64,000 nucleotides of DNA from Amycolatopsis sp. DSM 110486 (lineage in GTDB: Bacteria; Actinomycetota; Actinomycetes; Mycobacteriales; Pseudonocardiaceae). The stretch spans positions 4,231,001 through 4,295,000 of the forward strand of contig NZ_CP080519.1 in NCBI RefSeq assembly GCF_019468465.1, read 5' to 3'. The translations under genes were made by a program, and so were the position numbers. The number at the start of each line of letters is the position of its first letter. The stretch's first letter is position 1. Below, piece by piece: positions 19,764 through 42,863 of the stretch. The notes below the pieces were generated by a model. It saw only the letters and a program-made list of their open reading frames with translations. It was not told where the DNA came from and did not search any database.

Positions 19764-20483
19764 ATGACCTCTCCAGTGAAGCTCGACGACCTCATCAGCG
19801 CCATCAAGGCGAACAACGACAAGGACGCCCTCGCGCAGCTGTCCGACGCGGTGTACATGGGGGAGCACCTCGGTGAGCTGGCCGACCACCTCATCGGGCA
19901 CTTCGTGGACCAGGCGCGCCGCTCCGGCGCGTCGTGGACGGAGATCGGCGTGAGTATGGGGGTTTCCAAACAGGCCGCGCAGAAGCGGTTCGTGCCGAAG
20001 GACGACGCGGCGGGCAACATCCAGCGGGTGTACGGGCGCTACACCCTTCTTGCGCGAAATGTGGTCGTGGCGGCGCAGAGAGCCGCCAACGAGGCGCGCA
20101 GCCCGGGAATCGACACCGTGCACCTCGTGCTCGGGCTGATCACGGAGCCCTCCGCGCTGGCTGCGGGGATCATCGTTTTTCAGGGCGTGACCCTGGAAGC
20201 CGTGAAGGAAGCCGCGGAGGCGAAACTGCCCGAACCGGTCGATCCGGTGCCGGACCCGATGCCGTTCACGGCCGGCGCGAAGAAGACACTCGAGCTGACC
20301 CTGCGCGAAGGCTTGCGGATGGGCCACAACTACATCGGCACGGAGCACATCCTGCTGGCGCTCCTGGAACAGGGCGAAGGCGCCGGCTACGAGGTACTCA
20401 CCGGGCTGGGCATCACGAAGGAACCGGCCGAAGCGAAGATCCAGGAGGCCCTCGCGGAGATCGTTTCCGCGCGGGAGCAGTGA
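19764..20483 (+). CDS. HTH-Clp_N fusion protein
   Basis: A 239-residue soluble protein. Residues about 1-75 contain a helix-turn-helix, SGASWTEIGVSMGVSKQAAQ followed by KRF, of the sigma-region-4/XRE-like type. Residues about 80-235 hold a double Clp_N repeat: PGIDTVHLVLGLI in the first and FTAGAKKTLELTLREG with MGHNYIGTEHILLALLEQGEG in the second. Clp_N domains bind substrates or adaptors in ClpC/ClpA, but no AAA ATPase follows, so this is an unfoldase-free Clp_N protein tied to DNA binding. The promoter carries paired dyads, suggesting autoregulation. A split version of the same pair lies at 42112-42863. Confidence 0.88.
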   Translation: MTSPVKLDDLISAIKANNDKDALAQLSDAVYMGEHLGELADHLIGHFVDQARRSGASWTEIGVSMGVSKQAAQKRFVPKDDAAGNIQRVYGRYTLLARNVVVAAQRAANEARSPGIDTVHLVLGLITEPSALAAGIIVFQGVTLEAVKEAAEAKLPEPVDPVPDPMPFTAGAKKTLELTLREGLRMGHNYIGTEHILLALLEQGEGAGYEVLTGLGITKEPAEAKIQEALAEIVSAREQ

Positions 20484-20539
20484 GGTTCCTGCTTCTGGCG
20501 GTCGTCGTCGCCGGTTTCCTGGTGACGATGACCGCCTGA
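20480..20539 (+). CDS. Possible 19-residue membrane peptide
   Basis: A GTG at 20480 overlaps the stop of the HTH-Clp_N gene (GTGA) and opens a 19-codon frame encoding a single hydrophobic helix (RFLLLAVVVAGFLVTM) that ends at TGA 20539. The overlap and the clean hydrophobic content are consistent with a small membrane peptide made by coupled translation. A chance frame is the alternative. Confidence 0.3.
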   Translation: MRFLLLAVVVAGFLVTMTA

Positions 20540-20555
20540 CCCCTAGGCTGGCGCG

Positions 20556-21080
20556 ATGGCCGACCCGTTCATGGAGGAGTTCCGCCGAGCGTTCGAAGAC
20601 GCCCAAGGCGACGGCCCTCCCGCCATCCAGAGCTTCGAAATCGTGGACACCCCGCCGCCGGACAACGACGAAGCCCTCGCCGCCGAAGCCAGCCGTCTGC
20701 TCGAGCCGATCGTGCAACAGCTGGCGCTTCTCGGCCCGCAAGGCTGGGAATGGTTTTCCGCCGAGTTCTCCTTCACCGTGTCCGCCGAGATCGCGCTCCT
20801 GCGCTTCTTCGCGGGCAACCAGCAGCGCGACGCCTACGTCCCCGAGCCCATCACCGCGATGCTGCGCAACCAACGCCACGTCGCCGCGCAGATGTCCGCC
20901 GGCCCGTGGTGGCGCCTGATCCTGAGCGTGCTCAACAGCGGACAGCTCAGCGTCACCTACGACTACGGCGACGAACCCTTCCCGCCGCACCAGCTCCTGC
21001 CGCCGCAGCACTACCGCGACGACCTCAAGACCTACCGCCGTCCGCAGGTCCCGCCCTGGCTCACCCAGTACACGCAATGA
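20556..21080 (+). CDS. Conserved hypothetical protein
   Basis: A 174-residue acidic soluble protein. The N-terminal 45 residues are variable and acidic; the core has GWEWFSAEFSFTVSAEIA and a C-terminal TYDYGDEPFPPHQLLPP then YRDDLKTYRRPQVPPWL. The layout recalls small immunity-like proteins of the DUF600/YezG type, but I cannot confirm that. TAGGCT lies 6 nt before ATG 20556 with no Shine-Dalgarno, so the transcript is likely leaderless and independent of the gene before it. Confidence 0.75.
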   Translation: MADPFMEEFRRAFEDAQGDGPPAIQSFEIVDTPPPDNDEALAAEASRLLEPIVQQLALLGPQGWEWFSAEFSFTVSAEIALLRFFAGNQQRDAYVPEPITAMLRNQRHVAAQMSAGPWWRLILSVLNSGQLSVTYDYGDEPFPPHQLLPPQHYRDDLKTYRRPQVPPWLTQYTQ

Positions 21081-21082
21081 AA

Positions 21083-21117
21083 AAGGGACCCCCACCAAGA
21101 AACGGCGGGGGTCCCTT
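21083..21117. terminator. Bidirectional terminator between convergent genes
   Basis: AAGGGACCCCC and GGGGGTCCCTT form a perfect 11-bp stem around a 13-nt loop, with A-rich and T-poor flanks, between the stops of two convergent genes. Confidence 0.88.
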
Positions 21118-21127
21118 CAGCAAAAGA

Positions 21128-22564
21128 TCAAGCACCGACCTCGTCACGAGAATCCGTGGCCCACAGTGTGTGGAACGAACCCTCGCGGTCCACCCGCCGG
21201 TACGTGTGCGCACCGAAGAAGTCACGCTGAGCCTGCACCAGCGCCGCCGGGAGCCGGTCGGCGCGCAGGCCGTCGTAGTACGCCAGCGCGGTGGAGAAGC
21301 CCGGCGTCGGGATGCCGAGCCGCACCGCCGTGGAGATGACCGAACGCCAGGAGTCCTGCGCGTCTTCGACGGCCTTGCGGAACGCGCCCGCGGTCAGCAG
21401 CGTCGGGAGAGCCGGGTCCTCGGCGTAGGCCGCGGTGATGTCGTTCAGGAACTTCGCGCGGATGATGCAGCCCCCGCGCCAGATCGACGCGACGGCGCCC
21501 AGGTCGATGTCCCAGCCGTACTCCGTGGCGCCGGCCTGGATCTGGTTGAAGCCCTGCGCGTACGCGACGACCTTCGACGCGTACAGCGCCTGCTCGACGT
21601 CGTCGGCGAAGGTCTCCAGCGCGGCGCCCTTCAGCGGCGTACGCACCGGCCCCGCCAGCCCGCGAGCGGCTGCGCGAAGCGGCTTCGAGCCCGAAAGCGA
21701 ACGCGCGAACACGGCCTCGGCGATGCCACTGATCGGCACACCCAGGTCAAGCCCGATCTGCACGGTCCAGCGGCCGGTGCCCTTCTGCTCCGCCGCGTCC
21801 TCGACGATGTCGACGAACGACTTGCCCGAACCGTCGACGTGCTTGAGCACCTCGGCGGTGATCTCGATGAGGTACGACTCGAGCCGGCCGGTGTTCCACG
21901 TCGAGAACACGTCGGCGGTCTCCGCGGGCGAGTAGCCGGCGGCGCCGCGCAGCAGGTCGAACGACTCCGCGATCAGCTGCATGTCGGCGTACTCGATGCC
22001 GTTGTGGACCATCTTCACGAAGTGGCCCGCGCCGTCCGCGCCGATGTGCGTGCAGCACGGCTCGCCGTCGACCTTGGCCGAGATGTCCTCGAACAGCGGG
22101 CCGAGCGACTCGTACGACTCCTTCGACCCACCCGGCATGATGCTCGGGCCGTTGAGCGCGCCCTCCTCGCCGCCGGACACGCCCGTGCCGACGAAGTGCA
22201 GCCCGCGCTCGCGCAGCGCGGCCTCGCGCCGGCGGGTGTCCGCGAAGTGCGCGTTGCCGGCGTCGACGATCACGTCGCCCGGCTCCAGCAGCGGTGCGAA
22301 CTCCTCGATCACGGCGTCGGTGGGCCCACCGGCCTGCACCATGATCACGATCTGCCGCGGCCGCTCCAGCGCGTCGACGAACTCCTGCGCGGAGTACGCC
22401 GGGATGAAGTCGCCCTCGTCGCCGAACTGCTCGACGAGCGTGCGCGTGCGCGCCTCGGAGCGGTTGTGCAGGGCGACCGTGTGCCCGTGCCGGGCCAGGT
22501 TCCGCGCCAGGTTGCGGCCCATGACCGCCAAGCCGGTGACCCCGATGCTCGCCTTCTTGCTCAT
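21128..22564 (-). CDS. gnd: 6-phosphogluconate dehydrogenase, decarboxylating
   Basis: A 478-residue enzyme of the long form. NADP site GVTGLAVMGRNLARN at the N-terminus (the GxGxxG is GVTGLAVMG), the catalytic GTGVSGGEEGALNGPSIMPGG with the conserved Lys in GAGHFVKMVHNGIEYADMQ, and a C-terminal helical domain with the tail SFHTLWATD. It oxidises 6-phosphogluconate to ribulose 5-phosphate and CO2 in the oxidative pentose phosphate pathway, supplying NADPH. It stands alone, with its own terminator. Confidence 0.97.
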   Translation of the reverse strand: MSKKASIGVTGLAVMGRNLARNLARHGHTVALHNRSEARTRTLVEQFGDEGDFIPAYSAQEFVDALERPRQIVIMVQAGGPTDAVIEEFAPLLEPGDVIVDAGNAHFADTRRREAALRERGLHFVGTGVSGGEEGALNGPSIMPGGSKESYESLGPLFEDISAKVDGEPCCTHIGADGAGHFVKMVHNGIEYADMQLIAESFDLLRGAAGYSPAETADVFSTWNTGRLESYLIEITAEVLKHVDGSGKSFVDIVEDAAEQKGTGRWTVQIGLDLGVPISGIAEAVFARSLSGSKPLRAAARGLAGPVRTPLKGAALETFADDVEQALYASKVVAYAQGFNQIQAGATEYGWDIDLGAVASIWRGGCIIRAKFLNDITAAYAEDPALPTLLTAGAFRKAVEDAQDSWRSVISTAVRLGIPTPGFSTALAYYDGLRADRLPAALVQAQRDFFGAHTYRRVDREGSFHTLWATDSRDEVGA

Positions 22565-22638
22565 CCGAACCCTTTCCGAAGTCTCTTCTCCGGTGCGAGC
22601 CTAGCGTCGTTCGGGCCGCGGCGAACCTGCGAGAACAT

Positions 22639-23199
22639 TCACCGGGAGTTCGGGAATGGCCCGTCCTCGGCCGTTGTCGCCGGGGGCACGGTTTGTGCCC
22701 ACTCGGCCCAGTCGGCCATCGCCTGGTAGATCCGGATCGCCGCCTCCACGGCCACGCGCATCGCCTTCGTCTGCGGGCTCGTGCCGAAGTCACCGCGGTC
22801 CTTGGCCGCCGCGTAGGCGCGCATGGTTTCGGCGGTCTCGCTGAAGAACTCGTGCTCGCGACGCAGGTGCTCGGTCAGGTCGTCCTGCTCCATCAGCCAG
22901 AAGAAGAACGACCGCAGCACCGACTCGGTGCGCAACGTGTGGTCGACCTCGCCTGCGGCCAACCACGCACGCACGGCGGTGAGCCCGGTCTCGGTTATCC
23001 GGTACGCCTTGCGCCCGCGCGGGCCGTGGCTGTCGACCTCGATCAAGCCGGCCTCGGCCAGCCGGGACAGCTCGGCGTAGATCTTCGGGTGCTGCGCCGG
23101 CCACACCGGGCCGAGCGCCTCTTCGAACCGCCGGGCCAGGTCGTAGCCGCTGGCCGGCCCCTCGGCGAGCAGCCCGAGCAGCCCATACCGCAACGACAA
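22639..23199 (-). CDS. PadR-family transcriptional repressor
   Basis: A 186-residue PadR regulator. Winged helix at the N-terminus: LRYGLLGLLAEGPASGYDL and VWPAQHPKIYAELSRLAEAG; the C-terminal Vir_act_alpha_C helices (about 90-175) form the dimer interface. The TTG start at 23199 is chosen because GGAGGTG lies 6 nt upstream; no ATG or GTG is in frame there. It is divergent from the SDR gene, and two PadR-type sites lie between them, so it probably represses both until a small phenolic or other ligand binds. Confidence 0.92.
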   Translation of the reverse strand: MSLRYGLLGLLAEGPASGYDLARRFEEALGPVWPAQHPKIYAELSRLAEAGLIEVDSHGPRGRKAYRITETGLTAVRAWLAAGEVDHTLRTESVLRSFFFWLMEQDDLTEHLRREHEFFSETAETMRAYAAAKDRGDFGTSPQTKAMRVAVEAAIRIYQAMADWAEWAQTVPPATTAEDGPFPNSR

Positions 23200-23231
23200 G
23201 GCGACACCTCCGGTCCGAAGCCTACCTTGAC

Positions 23232-23291
23232 ATGTCCCTGGGGACATGTGGAAGATTCGTCGTGTCCTGGGGTACATGTCCTTGAGTACAT
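23232..23291. promoter_or_regulatory. Two PadR operators (ATGT-N8-ACAT)
   Basis: ATGTCCCTGGGGACAT (23232-23247) and ATGTCCTTGAGTACAT (23276-23291) both match the ATGT-N8-ACAT pattern known for PadR. They lie 44 bp apart in the shared promoter region of the PadR and SDR genes. Confidence 0.85.
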
Positions 23292-23303
23292 GTGGAGACG
23301 TTC

Positions 23304-24101
23304 ATGCTGGAACAGAAGGCATTGGTGACCGGCGCGACCGCCGGGCTCGGCCGCGCGGTGGCGCTGGCCCTCGCGGAGCAGGGCGCGCACGTCGTCGTGC
23401 ACGGGCGCGACGCCAAGCGCGCCAACGCGGTCGTCGAGCGGATCGCCGAGGCGGGCGGCAAGGCCGAGGCGTGCCTCGCCGACCTGGGTTCGCTCGCGCA
23501 GGTGCGTGACCTCGCCGAGCAGGTGGGCGAAGTCGGGTTGCTCGTCAACAACGCCGGGGTCGGCGCGGGCCGGCCGCCGTACCGCAAACGGGAGCTCAGC
23601 GCCGACGGCCACGAGCTGCGGCTGGCCGTGAACTACCTCGCGCCGGTGCTGCTCACCCGGCGGCTGCTGCCCGGGCTCGGCTCCGGCGCCCGGATCGTCA
23701 ACGTCGGCTCGGTCGGCCAGGCGCCGGTGGACTTCGCGGACCTGCGCCTGGACCGCGGCTACCGCGGCTCGGAGGCGTACTTCCGCAGCAAGTTCGCACT
23801 CGCCGCGTTCACCTTCGACCTCGCCGCCGAGCTCGACGGCAGCGACGTCACCGTCAACTGCGTGCACCCGGCGTCGCTGATGAACACGCACATGGTCCGC
23901 GAGTCGCTGATCCCGCCGATGTCGACCGTCGGCACCGGCACGAAGGCCGTGCTCAACGTGGCGACCGGCGCGGCCGGCGAGCGCACTGGCCGGTACTTCG
24001 ACGGACTGAACCCGGCCCGCGCGCACGAAGGGACTTACGACCTTGCAACGCGCGCACGGCTGCGCGAGGCCACGGCGGAGCTGCTCGCGTCTTTCCTGTG
24101 A
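23304..24101 (+). CDS. Short-chain dehydrogenase/reductase
   Basis: A 265-residue SDR. Cofactor motif TGATAGLG near the N-terminus, NNAG in the centre, and the catalytic set with Ser in VNVGSVGQAP and YFRSK (Tyr-x3-Lys). It resembles retinol-dehydrogenase/WWOX-like SDRs that use NADP. The substrate is unknown. GGAG lies 6 nt before ATG 23304. It is probably controlled by the divergent PadR repressor. Confidence 0.92.
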   Translation: MLEQKALVTGATAGLGRAVALALAEQGAHVVVHGRDAKRANAVVERIAEAGGKAEACLADLGSLAQVRDLAEQVGEVGLLVNNAGVGAGRPPYRKRELSADGHELRLAVNYLAPVLLTRRLLPGLGSGARIVNVGSVGQAPVDFADLRLDRGYRGSEAYFRSKFALAAFTFDLAAELDGSDVTVNCVHPASLMNTHMVRESLIPPMSTVGTGTKAVLNVATGAAGERTGRYFDGLNPARAHEGTYDLATRARLREATAELLASFL

Positions 24102-24104
24102 ACG

Positions 24105-25031
24105 TCAGGAGAAACAGCGGATGGGCGCGCCGTTGTAGGCGACCATGTCGGTGATCGCCGCGACCAGGTCGATCGGCGCGCCCCACTCCGCACCGTCCAG
24201 CTCGGCGTACGCGCGGTGCAGGTTGCCGGCCAGCCGTTCCTGTTCGGACAAGTCCGAAAAGGTCCCGAGGTCGGTCTCCTTCGCCAGCTGCAGCGGGGAA
24301 AGCCCCGCCGCCTTGCCGCGTTCGGCCGTTTCCTGGACGAACTTCAGGTACGCGTCGACGACGTCCACCGTCTCCAGTCCGCACGGGCCGCCGTGGCCGG
24401 GCAGGATCAGCGCCGGCTCCAGCTCGCGGATCACGTCGAGCGCCGCACGCCAGCCGGCGACCGAGCCCATCAACGCGAACGGGCTGCCGCCGTGGAAAAC
24501 CAGGTCACCCGCGAACAGCACGCGCTGCTCGGGCAGCCACGCGAGCACGTCGTTGGTGGTGTGGGCGGCGTGGCCGGGGTGCACGAGCTCGATCACGGTG
24601 TCGCCCGCGTGGACGGTCAGCCGGTCGTCGAACACGACGTCGGGCGCGCGCAGCTCCAGGTGGCCCCAGTCGTTGCCGACGAGCGCGCCTTCGTAGGTCT
24701 CGATGCCGGCGGCGAGCATCGCGTCCCGCGTCTTGCGCTGGCCGATGATCGTCGCGCCGCCGACGAGGTAGTTGCCGTTGGTGTGGTCGGAGTGGTGGTG
24801 GGTGTTCACGAGCGTCGTGACAGGTCCCGTCGTGGCCTCCGCGGCGGCCAGCAGAGCGCGCGTGCGCCGCTCGGTGGCACACGTGTCGATGAGCACGGTG
24901 TGGTCACCGGCCGCGACGAACCCGCAGTTGTTGATGAACCAGGAACCGTCGGGCTGCACGTAGCCGAAGACGCCGTCTGCGAGGCGCTCGACCTTCGCGG
25001 CGCCGGGGGAGCGATCGATCACGTCCGCCAC
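24105..25031 (-). CDS. Metallo-beta-lactamase-fold hydrolase
   Basis: A 308-residue MBL-fold enzyme. The metal site THHHSDHTNG (HxHxDH), a second His in VHPGHAAHT, Asp in LFAGDLVF and a final LPGHGG are all present, so two metals can bind. It may hydrolyse an ester, lactone or thioester; the substrate is not evident. The GTG start at 25031 follows GAGG. It converges on the SDR gene with only 3 nt between the stops. Confidence 0.9.
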   Translation of the reverse strand: MADVIDRSPGAAKVERLADGVFGYVQPDGSWFINNCGFVAAGDHTVLIDTCATERRTRALLAAAEATTGPVTTLVNTHHHSDHTNGNYLVGGATIIGQRKTRDAMLAAGIETYEGALVGNDWGHLELRAPDVVFDDRLTVHAGDTVIELVHPGHAAHTTNDVLAWLPEQRVLFAGDLVFHGGSPFALMGSVAGWRAALDVIRELEPALILPGHGGPCGLETVDVVDAYLKFVQETAERGKAAGLSPLQLAKETDLGTFSDLSEQERLAGNLHRAYAELDGAEWGAPIDLVAAITDMVAYNGAPIRCFS

Positions 25032-25296
25032 TATGCCTCAGAACCGAGCGTCGCAGCACCGGGCGCCGATGTAGTCCGGATGGAGCAGCGGCAGTGTCCG
25101 AAAGGCGCTGGATGGCCTGGTCCAGGCGAGTGATACCCGGGGTGACTGGCTTTTCGGATCATTTCCTGGAACGCTGCGCGGTGTCATCATCGAACCCCGT
25201 TGGGTAAAGGTACTAACCTGGGTGGTTCGAACGTTCGCGCGTCGGCAGTGGTCGAGAGACTGCTACGGCGGTTAGTGGTCCGGGAGAGCAAGGCTG

Positions 25297-26154
25297 ATGG
25301 CGAGCACCGTCACCTCGCGCCGGAAGCAGCTCGGAAACGAGCTCCGGCATGCTCGAAACGCCGCGCGGATGACACAGCAGCAGGTCGCCGAAGTTCTCGG
25401 CTGCACCCAGGGCAAGGTCAACAAGATCGAGTCCGGAGCAGTGGGGGTCAAGCTCGGAGATGTGCGATCGATGCTGAACGCGTTCGGGATCAACGGCGAA
25501 GAAGCCGACACCCTGATGAATCTGGCCCGCGCCGCCGCCGGGCAGCGCGGTCACTGGTCGGGCTACCGCTCGGTGGTGCCCCACTGGTTCCGCACCTTCA
25601 CCGACCTCGAGCCGGCGGCCGCGGAGATCCTCACCTGGCACGGTGAGCGCATCCCGGGCCCGCTGCAGTCCGAGCACTACATGCTCAAGCAGTTCACGGA
25701 GGCGGGTGCGACCGACGTCACGTCGCTGGTGCGCAACCGGCTCGACCGCAAGGCCGTGTTCGACCAGCAGCAGCCGCCGTACTACCGGTTCATCGTGAGC
25801 GAGGGCGCGCTGCGCCGCGCCCCGGGCGGGATCGCGCCGGCGGTGATGCTGGACCAGGTCGAGCACATGCTGGCGCTCGACCGCTACCCCCGCGTGTACG
25901 TGCACGTGCTGCCCTTCGGCGCGAAGCTCGCCGCGGTGCCCAACGACTTCACGATCATGCGCTTCCCAGACCGCACGCGGGACTTCGTCTACATCGAACA
26001 CTCCGCGGGCGGGCTCTACCTCGACGACGTCAAGGACTTCAACATCTTCGTCGACTCGTGGGACCGGCTGCGCGGTGCGGCGCTGGAGCGCGCCGAGACG
26101 CGGCAGTTCCTCAAGGAGCTCGCCGAGGGCTACCGGGCGCAGATGTCGCAGTGA
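25297..26154 (+). CDS. XRE-family regulator with DUF5753 domain
   Basis: A 285-residue actinobacterial regulator. The XRE helix-turn-helix (about 10-70) has MTQQQVAEVLGCTQGKVNKIE; the DUF5753 domain (about 85-280) has the typical ERIPGPLQSEHYMLKQF and VYVHVLPFGAKLAAVPNDF. These proteins usually pair with a DUF397 protein and belong to the WhiJ/AbaA-like families linked to development in Streptomyces. A DUF397 gene is present at 29127, but 3 kb away. The 3' end overlaps the convergent glycosyltransferase by 44 nt. Confidence 0.93.
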   Translation: MASTVTSRRKQLGNELRHARNAARMTQQQVAEVLGCTQGKVNKIESGAVGVKLGDVRSMLNAFGINGEEADTLMNLARAAAGQRGHWSGYRSVVPHWFRTFTDLEPAAAEILTWHGERIPGPLQSEHYMLKQFTEAGATDVTSLVRNRLDRKAVFDQQQPPYYRFIVSEGALRRAPGGIAPAVMLDQVEHMLALDRYPRVYVHVLPFGAKLAAVPNDFTIMRFPDRTRDFVYIEHSAGGLYLDDVKDFNIFVDSWDRLRGAALERAETRQFLKELAEGYRAQMSQ

Positions 26155-27265: not shown

Positions 27266-27434
27266 TCCCGGCAAAGTAGTGGTTGACGACGGGGCCGGTC
27301 TCGTCGTTTTCCTGGGATTCCGTCACCGCAAGCTCCGATCGGGTGTCACTCGATCAGGGGTCGGCTGCGGGACGGGCCGGGAGATCGGCAGACTGGTCCG
27401 CACCAGCACACCGCGGGTCGGAAAGGGACAGCTG

Positions 27435-28283: not shown

Positions 28284-28291
28284 CGACGAAT

Positions 28292-28325
28292 GCGCGCCCC
28301 GGGAGGGTGATGACCCGGGGCGCGC
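28292..28325. terminator. Bidirectional terminator hairpin
   Basis: GCGCGCCCCGGG and CCCGGGGCGCGC form a 12-bp perfect stem around AGGGTGATGA, between the convergent DUF574 gene and the small gene at 28349. No long T run. Confidence 0.75.
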
Positions 28326-28348
28326 TGGTTCGGTGGTCTGTGTCGCGC

Positions 28349-28603
28349 CTACGCGCGGGACGGGCCCAGTCCGTGGATGAGCGGTGCGAGGTCGACGCGC
28401 GCCTCCAGCGGCCTCGTGGCGCGGACCAGGTCCGGCTGGCGCGGGGCGGGCACGTCGAGGTCGGTGTCCCAAGTGACCGGGCTGCGCAGTGGCGCTTGGA
28501 TCAGGCTGAAGCCGAAGCGGCTGCGCAGCTCGTGGTTGATCCCACGCCGGCCGTGAGTGTGTTCATCCTCACGGCGGAAGAGCGTGGTGAGCCGGACGGC
28601 CAT
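28349..28603 (-). CDS. Small conserved hypothetical protein
   Basis: An 84-residue soluble basic protein: MAVRLTTLFRREDEHTHGRR at the start, RFGFSLIQAPLRSPVTWDTD in the middle. No family is recognised. It begins 4 nt after the stop of the preceding small gene, so the two form an operon and may act together. Confidence 0.65.
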   Translation of the reverse strand: MAVRLTTLFRREDEHTHGRRGINHELRSRFGFSLIQAPLRSPVTWDTDLDVPAPRQPDLVRATRPLEARVDLAPLIHGLGPSRA

Positions 28604-28607
28604 GAGA

Positions 28608-29547: not shown

Positions 29548-29554
29548 AACCGGA

Positions 29555-33214: not shown

Positions 33215-33238
33215 GCTTGTTTCTCGGAGGACCATCCC

Positions 33239-34258: not shown

Positions 34259-34271
34259 AAGGAACCTCTCC

Positions 34272-35959: not shown

Positions 35960-35966
35960 CGAAGAT

Positions 35967-36028
35967 TCTAACCGGATCATGAGGTTAGACGCTACCGGAT
36001 GTAGCTAACCGGTGGCAAGGGTTAGAAT
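35967..36028. promoter_or_regulatory. Divergent promoters with two CTAACC-N9-GGTTAG dyads
   Basis: CTAACC...GGTTAG occurs at 35968-35988 and 36005-36025, each with exactly 9 bp between arms and centres 37 bp apart. The outer arms run into a TAGAAT -10 on each side (35970-35965 leftward, 36023-36028 rightward). Both start codons follow at 5-6 nt. A protein on these sites would cover both -10 boxes. Confidence 0.8.
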
Positions 36029-36034
36029 CCACCC

Positions 36035-36574
36035 ATGGAGTGGGTCTTCGACGGCGGCCGGCCGAGTCTCGACCTCGTCAACACGCTGCGCAACCGCTAC
36101 CAGGCCGAGGGGTTCGAGCAGCTGACGTCGCCCGAAGCGCTCGCCGAGTGGCTGTCGCTCGCCGGCCTCACCGAGGGCCGGGTGCCCGTCACGGAGGAAG
36201 ACCTCGAAACGGCGAAATGGCTCAGGGAGGCAGTGAACCGGCTGGTCACCACCCCGCCGGCGCAGCAGGACGTCGAGCTCGTCAACAAAGCCGTCGAGGA
36301 GCCGCTGCCCAACGCGCGCCTGCAGTTGTCGGGCGGTGAACTGCACAAAGCGGCACCCATTCCCCGTAACCCGGTCGCCGCCGCCTTCGCGCTGATCGCC
36401 GCCGACGTGATCGAACTGGTGACCAGTCCGGTGGACGTCCGCGTCTGCGCGGCCGAAGACTGCGGCCTCCGCTTCGCGGACGCATCACCCCGCCGCACCC
36501 GCCAATGGTGCTCGATGTCCCGCTGCGGCAACCGCGCCAAGGCCCGAGCGCACTACGCCCGCACCCGAGCCTGA
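36035..36574 (+). CDS. CGNR zinc-finger/ABATE-domain regulator
   Basis: A 179-residue protein. The N-terminal ABATE domain (about 5-120) begins FDGGRPSLDLVNTLRNRY; the C-terminal zinc finger has VCAAEDCGLRFAD then RQWCSMSRCGNRAKARAHY, the CGNR motif with four Cys ligands. Members are thought to be stress-type transcription regulators. Divergent from the haloacetate-dehalogenase-type hydrolase and flanked by two identical-architecture dyads, it is the likely repressor of both genes (inference). Confidence 0.93.
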   Translation: MEWVFDGGRPSLDLVNTLRNRYQAEGFEQLTSPEALAEWLSLAGLTEGRVPVTEEDLETAKWLREAVNRLVTTPPAQQDVELVNKAVEEPLPNARLQLSGGELHKAAPIPRNPVAAAFALIAADVIELVTSPVDVRVCAAEDCGLRFADASPRRTRQWCSMSRCGNRAKARAHYARTRA

Positions 36575-36575
36575 G

Positions 36576-37421
36576 TCAGGAGATCAGCCGGTAGGCCCAC
36601 GGATGGGCGCGCAGCCACACGTTCAGCTTGCCGATCCACCGCATGTGCGCCGTCCGCAACGGCACTGGCACCAACCAGCCGACAATCCGCACCACACGGC
36701 AGAATCGCGCGAACCGCAGCTGGTCACGAGAAGTCCACTGTAGACCGAGCTGCTCCCGCAAAGCCGACGGCAACGTCGCCCGGATCAAGAAAAGCTGCCC
36801 CGCGGCCTGCGCGCTCCGCAGTCGAGGCCACCACCGATCCGGCAGCCACCGCACGGGTTTCGGCACGGTGTGGATGGTCTCGAACAACGTCGTCATCGTC
36901 TCGTTCGGCCGGAACGACGCGACCATCTCGTCGTAGTACCGCTCGAACGCGGCCCAGTCCGCCGGCAGATCCCGCTCCCGCACGCCGAGCACCCGGCCGA
37001 TATCGCACATCTGCGCGTAGTACTCGTCAAGCTCGGCAAGACTCAACGGACGGCCGAAAAACCGTTGCACATCAACCGGAACCTTCACCAGCGTCGCATG
37101 CACCCACGCATACGCGCCGGGGTCGAGACCGCTGTACCGCCGCCCGTCGGCCACTCCGGTGAACGTCCGATGCAGCTCCCGCAACCGCGAAGCCTCGAAC
37201 CGCGCGCCCGAAGCACCGCCGTACACGTAAATCGACAGCGAAGCCCCCGTGCGCATCAATCGCGTCCAGGGATCCGAAACATAGTCCGAGTGGTCCCGCA
37301 CCCCAGCCGCGACCACGGGGTGCGCCACCTGCAGCACCAGCACCTGCCCCGCCAGCAGGAGGTCGCGGAAGTCGCCGAAGTACCGCCACGCAGCGGTGCC
37401 CGGCACGACCGGCGGCCCCAC
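36576..37421 (-). CDS. MpaB/latex-clearing-type oxygenase family (DUF2236)
   Basis: A 281-residue member of the DUF2236 heme-b family, which includes fungal MpaB and the rubber oxygenase Lcp. Visible features are LQVAHPVVAAGVRDHSDY with the likely heme-ligand His, RLMRT, the KVPVDVQRFFG helix and WTSRDQ. Bacterial members are mostly uncharacterised oxygenases. The GTG start sits 1 nt after the stop of the TetR gene, so it is the third gene of the amidase-TetR operon. Confidence 0.88.
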   Translation of the reverse strand: MGPPVVPGTAAWRYFGDFRDLLLAGQVLVLQVAHPVVAAGVRDHSDYVSDPWTRLMRTGASLSIYVYGGASGARFEASRLRELHRTFTGVADGRRYSGLDPGAYAWVHATLVKVPVDVQRFFGRPLSLAELDEYYAQMCDIGRVLGVRERDLPADWAAFERYYDEMVASFRPNETMTTLFETIHTVPKPVRWLPDRWWPRLRSAQAAGQLFLIRATLPSALREQLGLQWTSRDQLRFARFCRVVRIVGWLVPVPLRTAHMRWIGKLNVWLRAHPWAYRLIS

Positions 37422-37422
37422 G

Positions 37423-37965
37423 TCAGGCCCCGCGCAGCAGCATCATCAGCGGCTCGGCGGCCGCCACGTCGGTGCCCGTCGACAGCCGGCGCAGCTGCAA
37501 CCCGGCGATGAGCGCGACGACGGGACCCGCCACCCGCGCGGGATCAGCCACGCCGAGCGCACGCAGGATCGTCGTGGCCAGATCGTCGTACGCGGCGAAG
37601 CAGCGCGCGGACGCTTCGCGCAGCCCGGGATCGCGCGCGGCCTGGAGGTAGAGCTCGTGGGGCGCGAGGTCGTCGGTGCCGAACGGCAGCTGCTCGATCA
37701 CGTGCTCCACCACGGCCGCGGCCTGCTCGAGGCTGAGGCCGTCGGCTCGGTGGGCGTCGGCGATCGCGGCGAGCTTCGCCGTCTCCTCCTCGGCGAACAG
37801 CAGCATCGCCTCGCGCAGGAGCGCCGTCTGGCTGGGGAAGTGGTAGGTCAGTGTGCCGAGCGAGACGCCCGCGGCGGCCACGATGCGCCGGTTGGTGAGC
37901 CCGCCGACGCCTTGTTCGCCGACGACCTCGAGCGTCGCCCGCAGGATCGCGTCGCGGGTGTTCAC
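37423..37965 (-). CDS. TetR-family transcriptional regulator
   Basis: A 180-residue TetR repressor. The helix-turn-helix is in RDAILRATLEVVGEQGVGG then LTNRRIVAAAGVSLGTLTYHF; the rest is the helical ligand domain (TetR_C_6-like). GTG 37965 overlaps the amidase stop (GTGA). It is encoded within the operon it probably controls; an 18-bp palindrome lies in front of the first gene. Confidence 0.93.
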   Translation of the reverse strand: MNTRDAILRATLEVVGEQGVGGLTNRRIVAAAGVSLGTLTYHFPSQTALLREAMLLFAEEETAKLAAIADAHRADGLSLEQAAAVVEHVIEQLPFGTDDLAPHELYLQAARDPGLREASARCFAAYDDLATTILRALGVADPARVAGPVVALIAGLQLRRLSTGTDVAAAEPLMMLLRGA

Positions 37966-39350
37966 CACACCCTTGCGGGCCGGCGCAGGTGCCACCGTTG
38001 GACCTCTTCCAGTTGCGCGGCAACGGAGATCAGCCGCTCCTCGGCGTGCGACGGGCCCAGCAGCTGGGCGCCGAGGGGGAGCCCGTCCGCCGTCTGTCCG
38101 GCCGGGACGTTGATTCCCGGCCAGCCCAGCACGTTCCACGGCCAAGCGTAGGGGCACGCGGCGATCATCGTCTGGTCGGTGCGCCAGCCGGTGAGGCCGT
38201 CGAACGCGCCGGTCTTCGGCGGCGGCGTCGCGGTGGTCGGGGTGAGCAGCACGTCGACGCGTCCGAACACCGAGCCGATGCGGCGCTGCAGCGCGGGTTC
38301 GAGCGCGCGGGCGAGTTTCAACGCGCCGGCGAGCACGGTGCCCTGCTGCGCGTTGCCGCGGGTGCGCGGGTCGAGCTTGGCCTTCTCGGGGACGCGAGCG
38401 GCCCAGTCGCGCACGCCGGTGAGCGAGCGAGGCAGGAAGGTGAGCCCGATGAGCCCGTAGTCCGGATCGATCTCGACGATTTCGTGGCCCATGTTCGCGA
38501 GCGCCTCCGCGGTGTTGCGCACGGCCGCTTCGACCATCGGGTCGAGGGTGGTTTTCGTTGCGGTGAAGGGAATCCTCGTCGACAGCCCGATGCGCAGCCG
38601 GCCGGGTTCGCGGCGGGCCGCACTGCGGAAGGTGCTGTCGGAGCCCGTGGTGACGTCGAGCAGGGTCGCCGCGTCGGCCACGGTCCGGGCGAGCGGCCCG
38701 AGCACGGTGAGGCCGTGGAACAGCTCCCCGCCCAGCGGCACGCGTCCGCGCTGCGTCTTGATGCCGACGAGCCCCGTCCACGCTGCCGGGATGCGCACCG
38801 ACCCGGCGCCGTCCGAGCCCAGCGCGGCCGCGACCACGCGGCCGGCCACCGCGGCCGCCGAGCCGCCGGAGGACCCGCCGGGCGTGTGGTCGGGGTGCCA
38901 CGGGTTGCGCGTGACCCCGAACGCCGGCCCTTCCGTGAACGGCCATTGCCCCAGCTCAGGCGTGTTCGTCTTGCCGATGATCACCGCGCCGGCCCGCTTG
39001 AGCAGCCCTACGGCCGGCGCGTCCTGCGTCGCGGCGGGGAAGTCGCCCGCGCAGCCGAACGCCGTCGGCAGGCCCGCGAGGTCCACGTCGTCCTTGATCG
39101 CGACGGGCACGCCCAGCAACGGCGTTCGGTCACCTCGCGCCCGGCGTCGATCGGCTTCTTCGGCCTCAACGAGGGCTTCCTCGTCCCGGATCCGGCGGAA
39201 GGCGTTCAGTACAGGTTGGCTCGCGTGCGCCTCTGCCAGGGCCGCGGCCGTGAGCGCCACGGACGTCGTTTCGCCTGCTTCAAGCGCCGCCACCTGCTCG
39301 GAGACGGTCGTGAACGCGACTGCGCTGATCTCAGAAGCCCTGACGGTCAT
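37962..39350 (-). CDS. Amidase (amidase signature family)
   Basis: A 462-residue amidase signature enzyme. The Ser-cisSer-Lys triad is visible: VAIKDDVDLAG (Lys), TPGGSSGGSAAAVA (cis-Ser) and GSDGAGSVRIPAAWTGLVG (nucleophile Ser region). It hydrolyses an amide, possibly a nylon-oligomer-like or drug-like substrate; the true substrate is unknown. It is the first gene of the amidase-TetR-MpaB operon. Confidence 0.93.
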   Translation of the reverse strand: MTVRASEISAVAFTTVSEQVAALEAGETTSVALTAAALAEAHASQPVLNAFRRIRDEEALVEAEEADRRRARGDRTPLLGVPVAIKDDVDLAGLPTAFGCAGDFPAATQDAPAVGLLKRAGAVIIGKTNTPELGQWPFTEGPAFGVTRNPWHPDHTPGGSSGGSAAAVAGRVVAAALGSDGAGSVRIPAAWTGLVGIKTQRGRVPLGGELFHGLTVLGPLARTVADAATLLDVTTGSDSTFRSAARREPGRLRIGLSTRIPFTATKTTLDPMVEAAVRNTAEALANMGHEIVEIDPDYGLIGLTFLPRSLTGVRDWAARVPEKAKLDPRTRGNAQQGTVLAGALKLARALEPALQRRIGSVFGRVDVLLTPTTATPPPKTGAFDGLTGWRTDQTMIAACPYAWPWNVLGWPGINVPAGQTADGLPLGAQLLGPSHAEERLISVAAQLEEVQRWHLRRPARVW

Positions 39351-39370
39351 CGGGCCACCCCCGGGGTTCT

Positions 39371-39388
39371 CGTTCGTTCGAACGAACG
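39371..39388. promoter_or_regulatory. 18-bp palindrome, probable TetR operator
   Basis: CGTTCGTTCGAACGAACG is a perfect self-complementary 18-mer, 21 bp upstream of the amidase start. The TetR gene lies in the same operon. Confidence 0.75.
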
Positions 39389-39497
39389 TTACCACCGGAC
39401 TGTGATTCCGGCTCCCTGGTTCGACAGCCGCCCTGCCCGAGGCTGACGATTGTGTCCGAATCCCGGCACCAGCCCGCCCCAGCACCACGGAGGATCG

Positions 39498-40526
39498 ATG
39501 ACGTTCGACTTCGACCGGTTTCCCGTTTTCGACGCGTTCCCGCGGGCGGGGCTCGGCAGCGGACCGACGCCGCTGCTGGCAGCGCCGCGGCTGGGCGAGG
39601 CGCTCGGGCTGCCGCGGCTGCTGCTCAAGCGCGACGACGTGCACCCGCTCGGCGTCGGGGGCAACAAGCTGCGCAAACTCGACTTCCACCTCGGCGCGGC
39701 GCTCGCGGCCGGCGCCGACACGGTGATCACCTTCGGCGCCCTGCAGACCAACCACGGACGCCAGACCGCGGCCGCGTGTGCGCGGCTCGGGCTGCGCTGC
39801 GAGCTCGTGCTCACGGCGAAGGTGCCGCGCGAGGGCGAGGCCTACGAGCACTCCGGCAACATCCCGCTCGACCTGCTCTTCGGCGCTCGCGTGCACATCT
39901 GCGCCACGGCCGAAGAAGCTGACCGCACGTACGAAGAGCTGCTCGCGTCGGCCGACTACGAGGGCCGCAAGGTCTTCACCGTCCCCGTCGGCGGGTCCGA
40001 CGCGCTCGGCACGCTCGGCTACGTCGCCGCGTCCCACGAGCTCGCGCAGCAGCTCTCGGCGCTCGGCATCGACAGCGCGCGCATCGTCGCGCCCCACGCG
40101 AGTGGCGGCACGTCCGCCGGCCTCTCGCTCGGCACGGCGCTGCTCGGCAACCTCGGCGCCGATTTCGCGTGCGTGAGCCACCCGCTCGACGAGGCCACCG
40201 ACAACCTCACGCACCTCGTCACGTCGGCCGCGCAGCTGCTCGGCGTCGACACCCCGTCGCTCGACCACGTGCGCATGAGCGACTCCACCCTGGGCGAGGG
40301 CTACGGCATTCCGGCGCCGTCGACGTGGGGCGCGCTGCGGCTGTTCGGCCGCACCGAAGGCGTGGTGCTGGACCCGGTCTACTCCGGCAAGGCCGCCGCC
40401 GCGCTCGTCGAATGGGCCGCCGACGGCCGGTTCGACCCGGAGGAGACCGTGGTGTTCGTGCACACCGGCGGCCTGCCCGGGCTTTACGGCTACGCGCCGG
40501 AATTCGTCGCCGCGATGCAGGAGTGA
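39498..40526 (+). CDS. PLP-dependent D-cysteine desulfhydrase / ACC deaminase family
   Basis: A 342-residue type II PLP enzyme. The Schiff-base Lys is Lys57 in GGNKLRKLDF; a Gln-Thr-Asn-His segment (QTNHGRQTAAACARLG) and the phosphate-binding GGTSAG follow. D-cysteine desulfhydrase (giving pyruvate, sulfide and ammonia) and 1-aminocyclopropane-1-carboxylate deaminase share this fold; a C-terminal TGGLPGLYGY is typical. Which activity holds cannot be settled by eye. GGAGGA sets the ATG. Confidence 0.88.
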   Translation: MTFDFDRFPVFDAFPRAGLGSGPTPLLAAPRLGEALGLPRLLLKRDDVHPLGVGGNKLRKLDFHLGAALAAGADTVITFGALQTNHGRQTAAACARLGLRCELVLTAKVPREGEAYEHSGNIPLDLLFGARVHICATAEEADRTYEELLASADYEGRKVFTVPVGGSDALGTLGYVAASHELAQQLSALGIDSARIVAPHASGGTSAGLSLGTALLGNLGADFACVSHPLDEATDNLTHLVTSAAQLLGVDTPSLDHVRMSDSTLGEGYGIPAPSTWGALRLFGRTEGVVLDPVYSGKAAAALVEWAADGRFDPEETVVFVHTGGLPGLYGYAPEFVAAMQE

Positions 40527-40527
40527 G

Positions 40528-41205
40528 TCAGTCCCGCGCGGTGGCCGGTTGCAGCTCGGCCGCCGCGCGGGTGGCGTCGACCCGCACCGCCACGCGGATC
40601 AAGCCCAGCAGCAGCACGACGTCGGCGACGAGCATCAACCGTTGCGTGGCCCCGGCCGGCAGCAGCTCGGTGACGGTGTGGACCGGCAGCCCGGCCTCGT
40701 CGAGGCGCGCGAACAGGAAACTCACGCCGAACACCACCAAAACGGCCACTCCGAACCGCAGCCACCGCGCCACGAGCGCGCGTTCGGCCGTGCCGCGCAA
40801 CGGTTCCAGCAACGTCAGCGCCGCGGCCGGCAGGCTCGCGAATGCCACCACACACGAGTACAGGTGGATCTCGCCGCTCGCCAGGTCCGGGTGCGGCGGG
40901 TAGCTCGCCGGAAACACCGCGGCCGTTGCCAAACCCAAGGCCCACAACGAAATCAGCACCCGCGTGGTCCGCGGCAGCGGCACGCCACCGGCGGCCAGGC
41001 AACCGAGCACGGCCAGCGAACCGACGGCGAGCGCCAGCACGCTCGCGCTCAGCAGGCCGGGGTCGGTGGTGGTGTAGCTGGACAACGTGTCGTGGATCGG
41101 GTCGCGCGAGCTGATCACGTGCATCAGGGTGATCGTGAACAGCCCCCACCCGATCGCCACCAGCGCGCCCGTCCGCCAGATCCGCAACCCCCGTGAAATC
41201 CCCAT
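40528..41205 (-). CDS. DUF998 membrane protein
   Basis: About 225 residues with six hydrophobic segments. ISSRDPIHDTLSSYTTTDPG after the first helix and FPASYPPHPDLASGEIHLY between helices match the DUF998 family. Function unknown. A GTG 6 nt upstream (41211) is an alternative start. It converges on the desulfhydrase with 1 nt between stops. Confidence 0.85.
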   Translation of the reverse strand: MGISRGLRIWRTGALVAIGWGLFTITLMHVISSRDPIHDTLSSYTTTDPGLLSASVLALAVGSLAVLGCLAAGGVPLPRTTRVLISLWALGLATAAVFPASYPPHPDLASGEIHLYSCVVAFASLPAAALTLLEPLRGTAERALVARWLRFGVAVLVVFGVSFLFARLDEAGLPVHTVTELLPAGATQRLMLVADVVLLLGLIRVAVRVDATRAAAELQPATARD

Positions 41206-41265
41206 GGCCACCAGCGTCGCGGGGTTGGCGCGATCCGTGATCCGGGATCACCCTGAATTCGACCC

Positions 41266-42039
41266 CTATTCGACCGCGCTGGTGAACTCCGCGAGCACCA
41301 GCGCCTGGTCGTCGTGGCGCTTCGCGCGCGGCCAGCGTGAACCGTCGGGATCCTGCGTTTCCGCAGTTCGCACGACATCCAGCACCGCGTTCGGGCCGCT
41401 CGCGCGAGCCAGCCGCAGGACGTCGGGCCAGCCGAAGAGGCCGTAGTCGTCGACCCCGGTGGACACGCCGTCGGTGGCGAGCAGCACGGCGTCGACCTCA
41501 GGGCGGGGCCACGAGCGCCGCACGGCCCTCGACGCCGCCGCGGGATCGGCTTCGGCGACCCAGAAGCCGCCCTCGGCGTTGCGGCGGCGGCGGACGTCGG
41601 CGCCGGTCTGGAGCAGGCCGCCGTCGCGCAGGGAGACCAGCCGGTCGTCGGCCACGACGTCCACCCCGAACTGTCCGAACGCGACAACCGGACTGTCCGC
41701 GAGCACAAGGGATTCGACCTCGGCCGCGTCCCAGCGCAGGATCGACACGGTGCTCGACGGCGAGTGCCCGGGCTCCAGCCCGTGCTCCGCCGCGACGCCG
41801 GCGATGGACGACGCCAGCGCGACGGCGAGGTCCTCCTTGGGACTTTCTCTCAGCTCGTCCGCCAGCCGGCGCACCAGCAGGTCCGCGTACCAGCCGCCGG
41901 GCGGCAGGTCCGGGCTCGGTGACGTGGCGCCGTCCAGCAGCAGCACGGCGTTGTCCAGCACCACGACGTGGTCTTCGCTCGCGCGAGGCAGGCCGTCCGC
42001 GCCTACTCCCGCGCGCTCCGCGATCGCGATCTCGGGCAT
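41266..42039 (-). CDS. PP2C-like protein phosphatase
   Basis: A 257-residue PP2C-type protein. It has the metal-binding VLLLDGATSPSPD (DGAT), a central LVLADSPVVAFG, the DAVLLATDGVSTGVDD motif with the second Asp, and a C-terminal RHDDQALVLAEF. Such enzymes dephosphorylate Ser/Thr residues using Mn/Mg. TAGCAT lies 6 nt before ATG 42039, so the mRNA is probably leaderless. It is divergent from the split HTH/Clp_N pair and one of their dyads (42066-42079) lies close to its promoter. Confidence 0.85.
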   Translation of the reverse strand: MPEIAIAERAGVGADGLPRASEDHVVVLDNAVLLLDGATSPSPDLPPGGWYADLLVRRLADELRESPKEDLAVALASSIAGVAAEHGLEPGHSPSSTVSILRWDAAEVESLVLADSPVVAFGQFGVDVVADDRLVSLRDGGLLQTGADVRRRRNAEGGFWVAEADPAAASRAVRRSWPRPEVDAVLLATDGVSTGVDDYGLFGWPDVLRLARASGPNAVLDVVRTAETQDPDGSRWPRAKRHDDQALVLAEFTSAVE

Positions 42040-42065
42040 CACTCGATGCTAACCCGAGTGCGCTG

Positions 42066-42107
42066 TCAACTTGAGTTGACAGAAGCGAGGATGTCAACCT
42101 AGATTGA
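42066..42107 (+). promoter_or_regulatory. Leaderless promoter with two TCAAC/TTGA dyads (second copy)
   Basis: TCAACTTGAGTTGA (42066-42079) and TCAACCTAGATTGA (42094-42107) are 14-bp dyads. The first overlaps the perfect -35 TTGACA (42076-42081), the second overlaps the -10 TAGATT (42100-42105), spacer 18 bp, and ATG 42112 follows 6 nt after. Architecture and half-sites match the promoter at 19717-19759. Confidence 0.8.
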
Positions 42108-42111
42108 CACT

Positions 42112-42321
42112 ATGACGGAAGCAACAGACCTGGCCGCGAGGGCGGGCGACCGTGATCCCCGAGTGGGGCTTCGCGCGGTCGCGGCGCTTCGTCGGCTCCT
42201 TGAACAACTCGAAGCCGTGCAGGTGCGCAGCGCCCGCGTGCACGGCTGGTCCTGGCAGGAGATCGCCGCCGAGCTGGGGGTCAGCCGGCAGGCCGTCCAC
42301 AAGAAGTACGGGAGGCACTGA
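42112..42321 (+). CDS. Small helix-turn-helix protein, partner of a Clp_N protein
   Basis: A 69-residue protein. Helical N-terminus, then VHGWSWQEIAAELGVSRQAV and HKKYGRH, a helix-turn-helix like the one inside the fusion protein at 19764 (SWTEIGVSMGVSKQAAQKRF). Leaderless start. Its stop overlaps the start of the Clp_N gene (TGATG). It is probably the DNA-binding half of a two-protein unit. Confidence 0.88.
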   Translation: MTEATDLAARAGDRDPRVGLRAVAALRRLLEQLEAVQVRSARVHGWSWQEIAAELGVSRQAVHKKYGRH

Positions 42322-42863
42322 TGTTCGAACGGTTCACGCTCGACGCGCGGCTGGCCGTGGTCGAGGCCCAGATCGTGGCGCGCGAAGCCGGCGCGCGGCA
42401 GATCGAGCTCACCGACGTGCTGGCCGGGCTCGCGCGCACCGAGAACGGCGCCGGCCTGCGGCTGCTGGAGGAGCTCGGCGTTTCGCGGGAGGACGTGCTC
42501 GCCGAGCTCGACCGTATCCGCCGGCGCGGCGGGATCAGCGACGCCGACGTGGCCGCGCTCACCGAGTTCGGCATCGACGTGGAGCAGATCGTCGAGCGCG
42601 TCGAGGAGACCCACGGCCCGGGCGCGCTCGCCGGTGGTGGCAGACGCGCCAAACGCGGCCACATCCCGTTCGCCGCCGACGCGAAGCGCACGATGGAGCT
42701 CAGCCTGCGCGAAGCCGTGAAGCTGGGGGACAAGCACCTGGGCCAGGAGCACCTGCTGCTCGCGTTGGTGCAGCAGAAGGGCCCGGTGCCCGATCTGCTG
42801 GCCGCGCACGGCGTCGACTACGTGTCGGTGCGGCGCGTGGTCGCGCAACGGGAGGCGGGCTAG
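42321..42863 (+). CDS. Clp_N-domain protein without ATPase
   Basis: A 180-residue protein with a double Clp_N repeat: FTLDARLAVVEAQIVAREAG with IELTDVLAGLARTENGAG, then IPFAADAKRTMELSLREAVK with LGDKHLGQEHLLLALVQQKG. No Walker motifs are present, unlike ClpC. Together with the preceding HTH protein it is the split equivalent of the fusion at 19764-20483. It could be an adaptor or ligand-sensing half controlling the HTH protein. The end overlaps the convergent YczE gene by 4 nt. Confidence 0.9.
   Translation: MFERFTLDARLAVVEAQIVAREAGARQIELTDVLAGLARTENGAGLRLLEELGVSREDVLAELDRIRRRGGISDADVAALTEFGIDVEQIVERVEETHGPGALAGGGRRAKRGHIPFAADAKRTMELSLREAVKLGDKHLGQEHLLLALVQQKGPVPDLLAAHGVDYVSVRRVVAQREAG

Follow-up and report, generated by a model that had tools for sequence, protein, structure and literature searches.

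Two loci in a 64,000-nucleotide stretch of Amycolatopsis sp. DSM 110486 (contig NZ_CP080519.1, positions 4,231,001 to 4,295,000; the whole stretch is called the window here, and its own numbering is used) combine a helix-turn-helix (HTH) domain with a double Clp_N domain, once in a single gene, the fusion, and once in two adjoining genes, the split pair. The split pair is, on comparative sequence evidence, a widespread actinomycete operon in which the parts of ClpC2 are separated and which bears the marks of autoregulation. It is apparently undescribed, as no description of the pair or of its operator was found in the literature searched, the papers on ClpC2 and RelSI being the nearest. The fusion adds a member to a known family, and its half of the story is already known, since ClpC2 has been described as repressing its own gene and as both sensing and titrating cyclomarin (PMC10030653). 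The literature consulted also includes PMC12913811, PMC10454040 and PMC10746685. The split pair and its control region are laid out as follows.

42065..42080, no strand: split-pair operator 1, GTCAAC-TTGA-GTTGAC, a dyad with a four-nucleotide spacer (N4); the -35 element TTGACA is at 42076-42081.
42093..42108, no strand: split-pair operator 2, GTCAAC-CTAG-ATTGAC (N4), ending 3 nt before the ATG; the -10 element TAGATT is at 42100-42105, with a spacer of 18.
42112..42321, plus strand: stand-alone HTH protein of 69 residues, a predicted autorepressor with the recognition helix SRQAVHKKY.
42321..42863, plus strand: stand-alone double Clp_N protein of 180 residues, with the predicted fold of the ClpC1 N-terminal domain (NTD) and, between its repeats, an extra pair of helices (residues 74-98).

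A first-pass annotation of the window had noticed separate, overlapping HTH and Clp_N genes here and had seen AAA ATPase motifs neither in them nor in the fusion, and both observations hold. The TGA stop of the HTH gene shares its A with the ATG of the Clp_N gene, an overlap of one base. The HTH protein matches PF08281 (29.0 bits) and PF13384 (25.7 bits), both over the cut-off, and its partner is a double Clp_N protein (E 2.3e-18); Clp_N alone, and no AAA family, is matched in Pfam by the split Clp_N protein and by the fusion. The pair is not a product of chance, since at E <= 1e-3 the split Clp_N has 1172 homologues among 5667 candidates and the split HTH 3495 among 3520. Amycolatopsis supplies the named sequences most closely related to the split Clp_N.

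An HTH gene followed by a Clp_N gene is found in all 80 named genomic loci and in 28 of 29 phylum-wide loci. Of 164 distinct split loci, 161 have Clp_N next after the HTH, as do 32 of 35 gathered later (two of the 32 being assigned by Pfam), which gives 193 of 199, the exceptions being L130, L227, L233, L299, L300 and L301; in none of the 112 split loci listed do the two parts share an open reading frame (ORF). This co-occurrence bears out the earlier suggestion that HTH and Clp_N form a real unit, and the remark that the design is uncommon has to be given up, with the split HTH of the window matched in 54 of 198 phylum-wide genomes (E <= 1e-3) and the paralogous HTH of locus L010 in 122 of 296 genomes of the class (E <= 1e-12). 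Identity between 10 Amycolatopsis and 70 Streptomycetaceae rows is 92.8% for the HTH and 42.5% for Clp_N, the HTH figure being inflated because these 80 named loci were picked by similarity to the HTH. The genome that holds the window (10.98 Mb) contains further split pairs at C1:8.47 Mb and at C1:10.23 Mb, which brings the total to three split pairs and one fusion. The HTHs of the additional pairs (C1:8471735-8471956, minus strand, and C1:10234016-10234237, plus strand) are identical over their 74 residues and divergent from that of the window pair, and each of these pairs has operators of GTCAGC type, namely two copies of GTCAGC-TTAT-GTTGAC. Three operator types are thereby present in the one genome: GTCAAC-N4, GTCAGC-N4 and the N5 type of ClpC2. 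In locus L114 the split HTH is followed by two consecutive Clp_N reading frames.

The upstream sequences carry the case for autoregulation. N4 dyads precede the HTH at least twice in 147 of the 164 split loci, once in 13 and not at all in 4, against a background of 0.001-0.002 per spacing in mononucleotide shuffles of the same stretches. Nine loci across both locus sets are without an N4 dyad; the seven inspected (L231, L232, L286, L292, L296, L297 and L298) all have variant half-sites of the form [AG]GCAAC, and the remaining two are L198 and L227. A TTGAC -35 and a TAnnnT -10 element, spaced 17-18 nt, are situated inside the dyads in 102 of 111 loci (the 112th, without a recognised start, was left out), so that the repressor sites and the promoter are the same DNA, and in 101 of those 102 the -10 element ends 6-8 nt before the start codon. 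The messenger of the split pair may well be leaderless, to judge from this geometry.

How far the operator reaches beyond the operon was gauged from genome scans. Five sites of the form GTCAAC-N3-6-GTTGAC are present in the genome of the window, with none for a reversed-pattern control: the fusion has two of them, the split pair one, and the remaining two stand alone. Among 26 genomes of the genus of G128, GTCAAY-N4-RTTGAC occurs 43 times, and tandem pairs account for 38 of these sites; a control with the pattern reversed had 4 forward matches. Six of the genomes have no exact site. HTH and Clp_N are at 18 of the 20 loci fetched, one per matching genome, the others being L239, with a lone site, and L253. 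For 20 Amycolatopsis genomes and GTCARC-N4-GTTGAC, the pair is at 16 of 25 fetched loci: 16 of 17 with the full GTCAAC palindrome versus none of 8 with GTCAGC only. L174 has a lone full palindrome without the pair, and the Amycolatopsis count is one of fetched loci, some genomes having further lone sites. The regulon would, on these patterns, mainly be the operon itself, with few other sites per genome. With no consistent target apparent elsewhere, what the switch sets should be how much HTH and Clp_N is made, which favors a sensor that is also the effector.

The same layout, with its small HTH gene first, overlapping genes and a promoter covered by operators, invites comparison with toxin-antitoxin systems, in which case the HTH would be an autorepressing antitoxin and the free Clp_N a growth-inhibiting blocker of ClpC1P. 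The HTH is also related to the RelI antitoxin (E 2e-4; PMC13284704). Such a role is nevertheless improbable. A search of 72,556 plasmid records at E <= 1e-5 and of 50,697 phage records at E <= 1e-3 gave no match to the split HTH, so that the presence on mobile elements that is usual, if not obligatory, for such systems is not seen; most of the 80 named loci have neighboring genes in common, 67 of the 80 sharing a zinc alcohol dehydrogenase ORF and 65 a PadR regulator ORF, in Streptomyces; and ClpC2, likewise with a free Clp_N, is reported to protect cells and not to be harmful.

An AlphaFold2 model of the split Clp_N protein, made from a 22-row alignment, has a mean predicted local distance difference test score of 90.7 and consists of two four-helix repeats of the ClpC NTD with the additional helix pair at 74-98. 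Its best matches in the PDB are ClpC1 NTDs, including complexes with ecumicin, rufomycin, lassomycin and cyclomarin. Among 22 close relatives, 8 of the 14 invariant columns fall within residues 67-99; among 70 diverse split Clp_N proteins the region aligned between the repeats is no more conserved than the repeats themselves. The equivalents of ClpC1 F2, R10, V13, F80, K85 and E89 are kept in 53, 58, 58, 52, 54 and 49 of the 70, respectively. R10, V13 and K85 we take to be residues of the ClpC1 pocket. The Glu and His of the second repeat (E143, H144) are kept in the alignment of 22 close relatives and the Glu of the first in only about 8 of them, these being, we assume, phospho-arginine sites. 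F2, F80 and E89 correspond by alignment to ClpC2 contacts named in the ClpC2 literature.

The fusion, some 22 kb away, and its operators are as follows.

19715..19733, no strand: fusion operator 1, with a GTCAAC-N5-GTTGAC core at 19716-19732 and one mismatch to the published CGTCAAC-n5-GTTGACG; its right half contains the -35 element TTGACG (19728-19733).
19743..19761, no strand: fusion operator 2, an exact CGTCAAC-N5-GTTGACG (no mismatch) that ends 2 nt before the ATG and contains the -10 element TACAGT (19751-19756).
19764..20483, plus strand: clpC2 homologue, with an N-terminal HTH/dimerisation domain (about residues 1-80) and a double Clp_N (about 89-236), without an AAA domain.

The product was described at first pass as a 239-residue joining of an HTH to a double Clp_N, and this is confirmed. 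Two Clp_N stretches are matched (PF02861, E 8.8e-22). Its N-terminal domain gives no match to a Pfam HTH model at E <= 1; the HTH call comes from homology to the N-domain of Rv2667, the ClpC2 of M. tuberculosis (PDB 8ada, residues 3-67, E 2.4e-23; the homologous stretch of Rv2667 is 4-72), together with a profile comparison with the split HTH (hhalign). The C-terminal part is a ClpC1-NTD-like double Clp_N without AAA, and it matches the ClpC2 C-domain structures 9p2p, 8ad9 and 8b9o (the last titled ClpC2 of M. smegmatis) better than ClpC1. Upstream there is the doubled operator of the family, its exact copy 2 nt before the gene, with the -35 and -10 elements spaced 17 nt within the two dyads. 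A scan of the window for the published operator with up to 3 mismatches yields six matches, which is not above the chance mean of 5.4, and the only ones with 0 or 1 mismatch are the two at the fusion. The sites of the cyclomarin contacts F172 and E181 keep Phe and Glu, and Tyr90 stands at the F96 place (numbering via alignment). By its sequence the fusion is thus a ClpC2 homologue, with all the features tested present except one of the three pocket residues. Full-length homologues at E < 1e-60 are found in 13 of the 198 phylum-wide genomes.

What has been reported for ClpC2 gives the frame in which both loci can be read. It represses its own gene through CGTCAAC-n5-GTTGACG sites, often two, 1-2 nt before the start, and the gene is suggested to be leaderless; cyclomarin binds the Clp_N part, repression is lifted, and the extra ClpC2 titrates the drug from ClpC1 (PMC10030653).

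The HTHs of fusion and split pair are homologous (hhalign probability 96, E 3.7e-9, 44 columns), and their operators differ in spacing. Among split loci the spacer is N4 in 160 of 164 and N5 in one; among fused loci it is N4 in none of 16 and N5 in 12, and in the stretches inspected for the other four an N5 dyad is visible in L132 and L154, near-matches are present in L136 and only a half-site in L141. In a Clp_N tree of 96 rows picked from 209, 13 of the 16 fused rows, that of the window included, form one supported group (SH-aLRT, the Shimodaira-Hasegawa-like approximate likelihood ratio test, 99), to which the split protein of the window is not near; the other fused rows, L144, L154 and L159, fall elsewhere. 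Its deep part is poorly resolved, with 46 of 93 inner branches drawn open. The two loci are therefore not, as first supposed, fused and split versions of one gene: they belong to different Clp_N lineages, within the limits of that resolution, and have N5 and N4 operators, respectively. The idea that the split pair is a frameshifted ClpC2 was also considered and is rejected, the recognition helix and operator spacing being different and the genes being separate and adjoining in 80 of 80 named loci. Having both forms is common, as 9 of the 13 genomes with a full-length fusion also have a split HTH (E <= 1e-10). The nearness of the two in the window is probably an accident, since they are at least 0.9 Mb apart in the three sampled genomes with both on one contig (G128, G193 and G074).

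Which domain reads the operator can be approached through its variation. Of 544 half-sites belonging to HTHs of AVHK type, 534 read GTCAA[CT]. Most loci have Ala as residue 4 of the helix, counted as the residue after [ST][KR]Q, and Thr or Ser there goes with a GTCAG half-site: operator position 5 is G in 10 of 11 loci with a residue other than Ala versus 6 of 146 with Ala (p 4.5e-11). Likewise position 6 is G in 6 of 10 loci where residue 7 is neither Lys nor Arg, versus 0 of 147 (p 1e-8). This first set counted 157 of the 164 split loci, with L198, L227, L231 and L232 dropped for having no N4 dyad, L130 and L233 for having no Clp_N, and L224 for a helix that the pattern did not match; in L224 residue 4 is Thr and every one of the four half-sites is GTCAGC. 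In the later set, position 5 is G in 9 of 9 loci without and 5 of 21 with Ala at residue 4 (p 1.4e-4). Thirty of its 35 loci were counted, the five dropped having no N4 dyad and Ala at residue 4. The 20 regions for this set were chosen with the hypothesis known and the operators unseen, and the later set, drawn mostly from families already sampled, is not an independent phylogenetic test.

A second line of evidence, one that calls for no statistics, is provided by family f72. In 4 of its 22 genomes (L305-L308, of which L305 is L233 and L306 is L300) the gene behind a related HTH, which it overlaps at its start, is of beta-lactamase fold and not Clp_N; tandem GTCAA[CT]-N4 dyads accompany that HTH. 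The gene is PF00144 by Pfam in L233 and L300 and by eye in the other two, and a beta-lactamase-fold serine hydrolase in place of Clp_N would amount to an effector swap. Two weaker f72 matches to the HTH (L309 and L324) have neither these dyads nor such a gene in the stretch inspected. In L299 and L301, of genus g5, an HTH with GTCATC/GTCAAC operators has an AAA (MoxR-like) gene next instead of Clp_N, by Pfam for L301 only.

The covariation, and the same HTH and operators being in front of a beta-lactamase-fold gene, lead us to think that the HTH probably reads the operator DNA. This is contrary to the published proposal for ClpC2, in which Clp_N is the DNA reader, two arginines of the C-terminal (Clp_N) domain being reported as important in DNA binding and the contact being placed there; the term helix-turn-helix is absent from the paper (PMC10030653). 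Those arginines count against an HTH reader, and so do several features of the present data. In the later set the association between residue 7 and position 6 loses strength (3 of 10 versus 0 of 20, p 0.03). Specificity is not clean, as residue 7 is also associated with position 5 (p 7e-5) and GTCAA[CT] persists in 8 of the 22 half-sites of TVHR-type loci. On the Clp_N tree residue 4 changes three times and residue 7 five times, with one and two supported independent pairs, respectively, and p values from the covariation overstate independence because these changes and pairs are few. None of the pairs runs in the opposite direction, but their number does not allow a test. For operator position 5 the tree has eight changes, so operators also shift without a change of residue. 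The N-domain mutant R57A of ClpC2 also loses repression (PMC10030653), which fits an HTH reader equally well.

The loci with another gene behind the HTH raise the question of whether the HTH is simply a general autoregulated driver with a variable neighbor, Clp_N being merely its commonest cargo and having no regulatory role. The PF00144 gene of two loci by Pfam and two more by eye, the AAA gene near in L301 (Pfam) and L299 (by eye), and the tandem operator before a DUF998 gene in L253 would suit this. It seems to us unlikely, however, with Clp_N next in 193 of 199 loci and with ligand binding to Clp_N reported to control repression in the fused ClpC2 (PMC10030653).

Our favored interpretation, held with some confidence and short of conviction, is that each locus is a decoy circuit for ClpC ligands, complete in itself and under its own repression. 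An HTH dimer would bind two tandem GTCAAC dyads over the -35 and -10 elements of a leaderless promoter and keep the gene off. The Clp_N part would be a free copy of the ligand-binding domain of ClpC; once it is occupied by a ClpC-directed ligand, be it a peptide resembling cyclomarin, unfolded clients or adaptor clients, repression would be lifted, the level of Clp_N would rise and the ligand would be titrated away from ClpC1. HTH and Clp_N would be coupled covalently in the fusion, as published for mycobacteria, and in the split pair, where both come from one messenger, by contact, perhaps via the extra helix pair. For the split pair we infer the HTH dimer on DNA, the contact between HTH and Clp_N, the identity of the ligand and the derepression. 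The first-pass idea of Clp_N as sensor for a DNA-binding protein is accordingly published fact for the fused kind (PMC10030653) and conjecture for the split kind, and whether the split Clp_N acts as a decoy is, in our estimate, about evenly balanced. Some observations speak against the decoy circuit. Tyr occupies the F96 place in the window fusion, where 12 other aligned ClpC2 homologues have Phe; the extra-helix signature is present in 56 of the 70 diverse split Clp_N proteins and not in all; and ecumicin and ilamycin are reported to bind ClpC2 without inducing it, so that occupancy of the pocket does not necessarily lead to derepression.

The split Clp_N could instead be a co-repressor or adaptor that holds the HTH or delivers it to ClpC1P, with proteolysis setting the level of repressor and ligands blocking delivery. 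The ClpC1 NTD does associate with adaptors and is needed to deliver some substrates (PMC10030653), and the extra helix pair of the model could serve as a docking surface for the HTH. The fused homologue, in contrast, works through direct ligand binding (PMC10030653), and we regard an adaptor role as rather doubtful. Returning to the decoy circuit, a broader and decidedly tentative picture would take in both loci: a phylum-wide actinomycete chassis for inducible self-protection, comprising a tiny, highly conserved HTH with a readable operator code, present in several insulated copies per genome, and its own leaderless operon, the cargo of which would usually be a free ClpC receptor domain, both sensor of and decoy for ClpC-targeting peptides made by actinomycetes or their neighbors, and now and then a hydrolase of beta-lactamase fold. 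In that case ClpC2 would be the fused offshoot of an older, unstudied system.

Two further genes of the window lie on the other side of the split-pair operators.

41266..42042, minus strand: PP2C-like gene (PF13672, below cut-off), divergent, its start about 22 nt from split operator 1.
40528..41211, minus strand: DUF998 membrane protein gene behind the PP2C-like gene.

Co-regulation of the PP2C-like gene with the split pair is possible, going by its position. Divergent PP2C-like and DUF998 genes give 27 and 24 matches, respectively, in Amycolatopsis among the 234 loci compared, some being the same place. In L253:883-1550 (minus strand), a tandem operator pair directly precedes the GTG start of a DUF998 membrane protein gene, and no HTH or Clp_N was found in this 1866-base locus; in the window, too, the DUF998 gene (40528-41211) is near the split pair. 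The two lone sites in the genome of the window are weak candidates for further targets. One, a perfect N4 dyad at C1:8462327 (L017:1501-1516), precedes by about 17 nt a uppP/BacA gene whose start is taken to be a TTG, and lies 9 kb from one of the other split pairs. The second, at C1:5451239 (L016), is an N5 dyad with a TetR-family gene about 30 nt downstream. A conserved extra target in Amycolatopsis, GTCAGCCGAAGTTGAC, was rejected, as it spans a conserved reading-frame end in the four copies viewed (L162, L165, L169 and L179).

ClpC1 is an antitubercular drug target and ClpC2 a known decoy that blunts cyclomarin, and the split pair is a commoner relative of ClpC2, present in Streptomyces and Amycolatopsis. 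As its parts are naturally separated, DNA reading, ligand sensing and decoy action are testable singly, and the operator covariation makes testable the proposition that the HTH domain and not the Clp_N domain reads the ClpC2 operator.

Set beside known systems, the fusion shares with ClpC2 (Rv2667 and M. smegmatis ClpC2; PDB 8ada, 8ad9 and 8b9o) both domains, tandem N5 operators by the ATG and the geometry of a leaderless promoter. The split pair has in common with ClpC2 the half-site GTCAAC, the tandem layout, a ClpC1-NTD-like ligand domain and a homologous DNA-binding domain. It differs in being two proteins and not one polypeptide, in its N4 instead of N5 spacer, in a recognition helix with QAVHKK where ClpC2 has QAAQKRF, in the extra helix pair of its Clp_N, and in its wider distribution (54 versus 13 of 198 genomes, at different thresholds); DNA reading is placed in the HTH domain by the present data and in the Clp_N domain in PMC10030653. 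In the RelS-RelI toxin-antitoxin system (Rv2663-Rv2664) RelI carries an HTH related to the split HTH, but there is no Clp_N, the toxin gene comes first and, per its authors, there are no inverted repeats upstream (PMC13284704). ClpC3 (MSMEG_3761) is likewise a small Clp protein, reported to bind cyclomarin and ecumicin (PMC10864484). With the NTD of ClpC1, or ClpC, the split Clp_N shares fold and pocket residues, whereas the AAA modules of that AAA+ unfoldase are, by Pfam, in neither Clp_N protein of the window.

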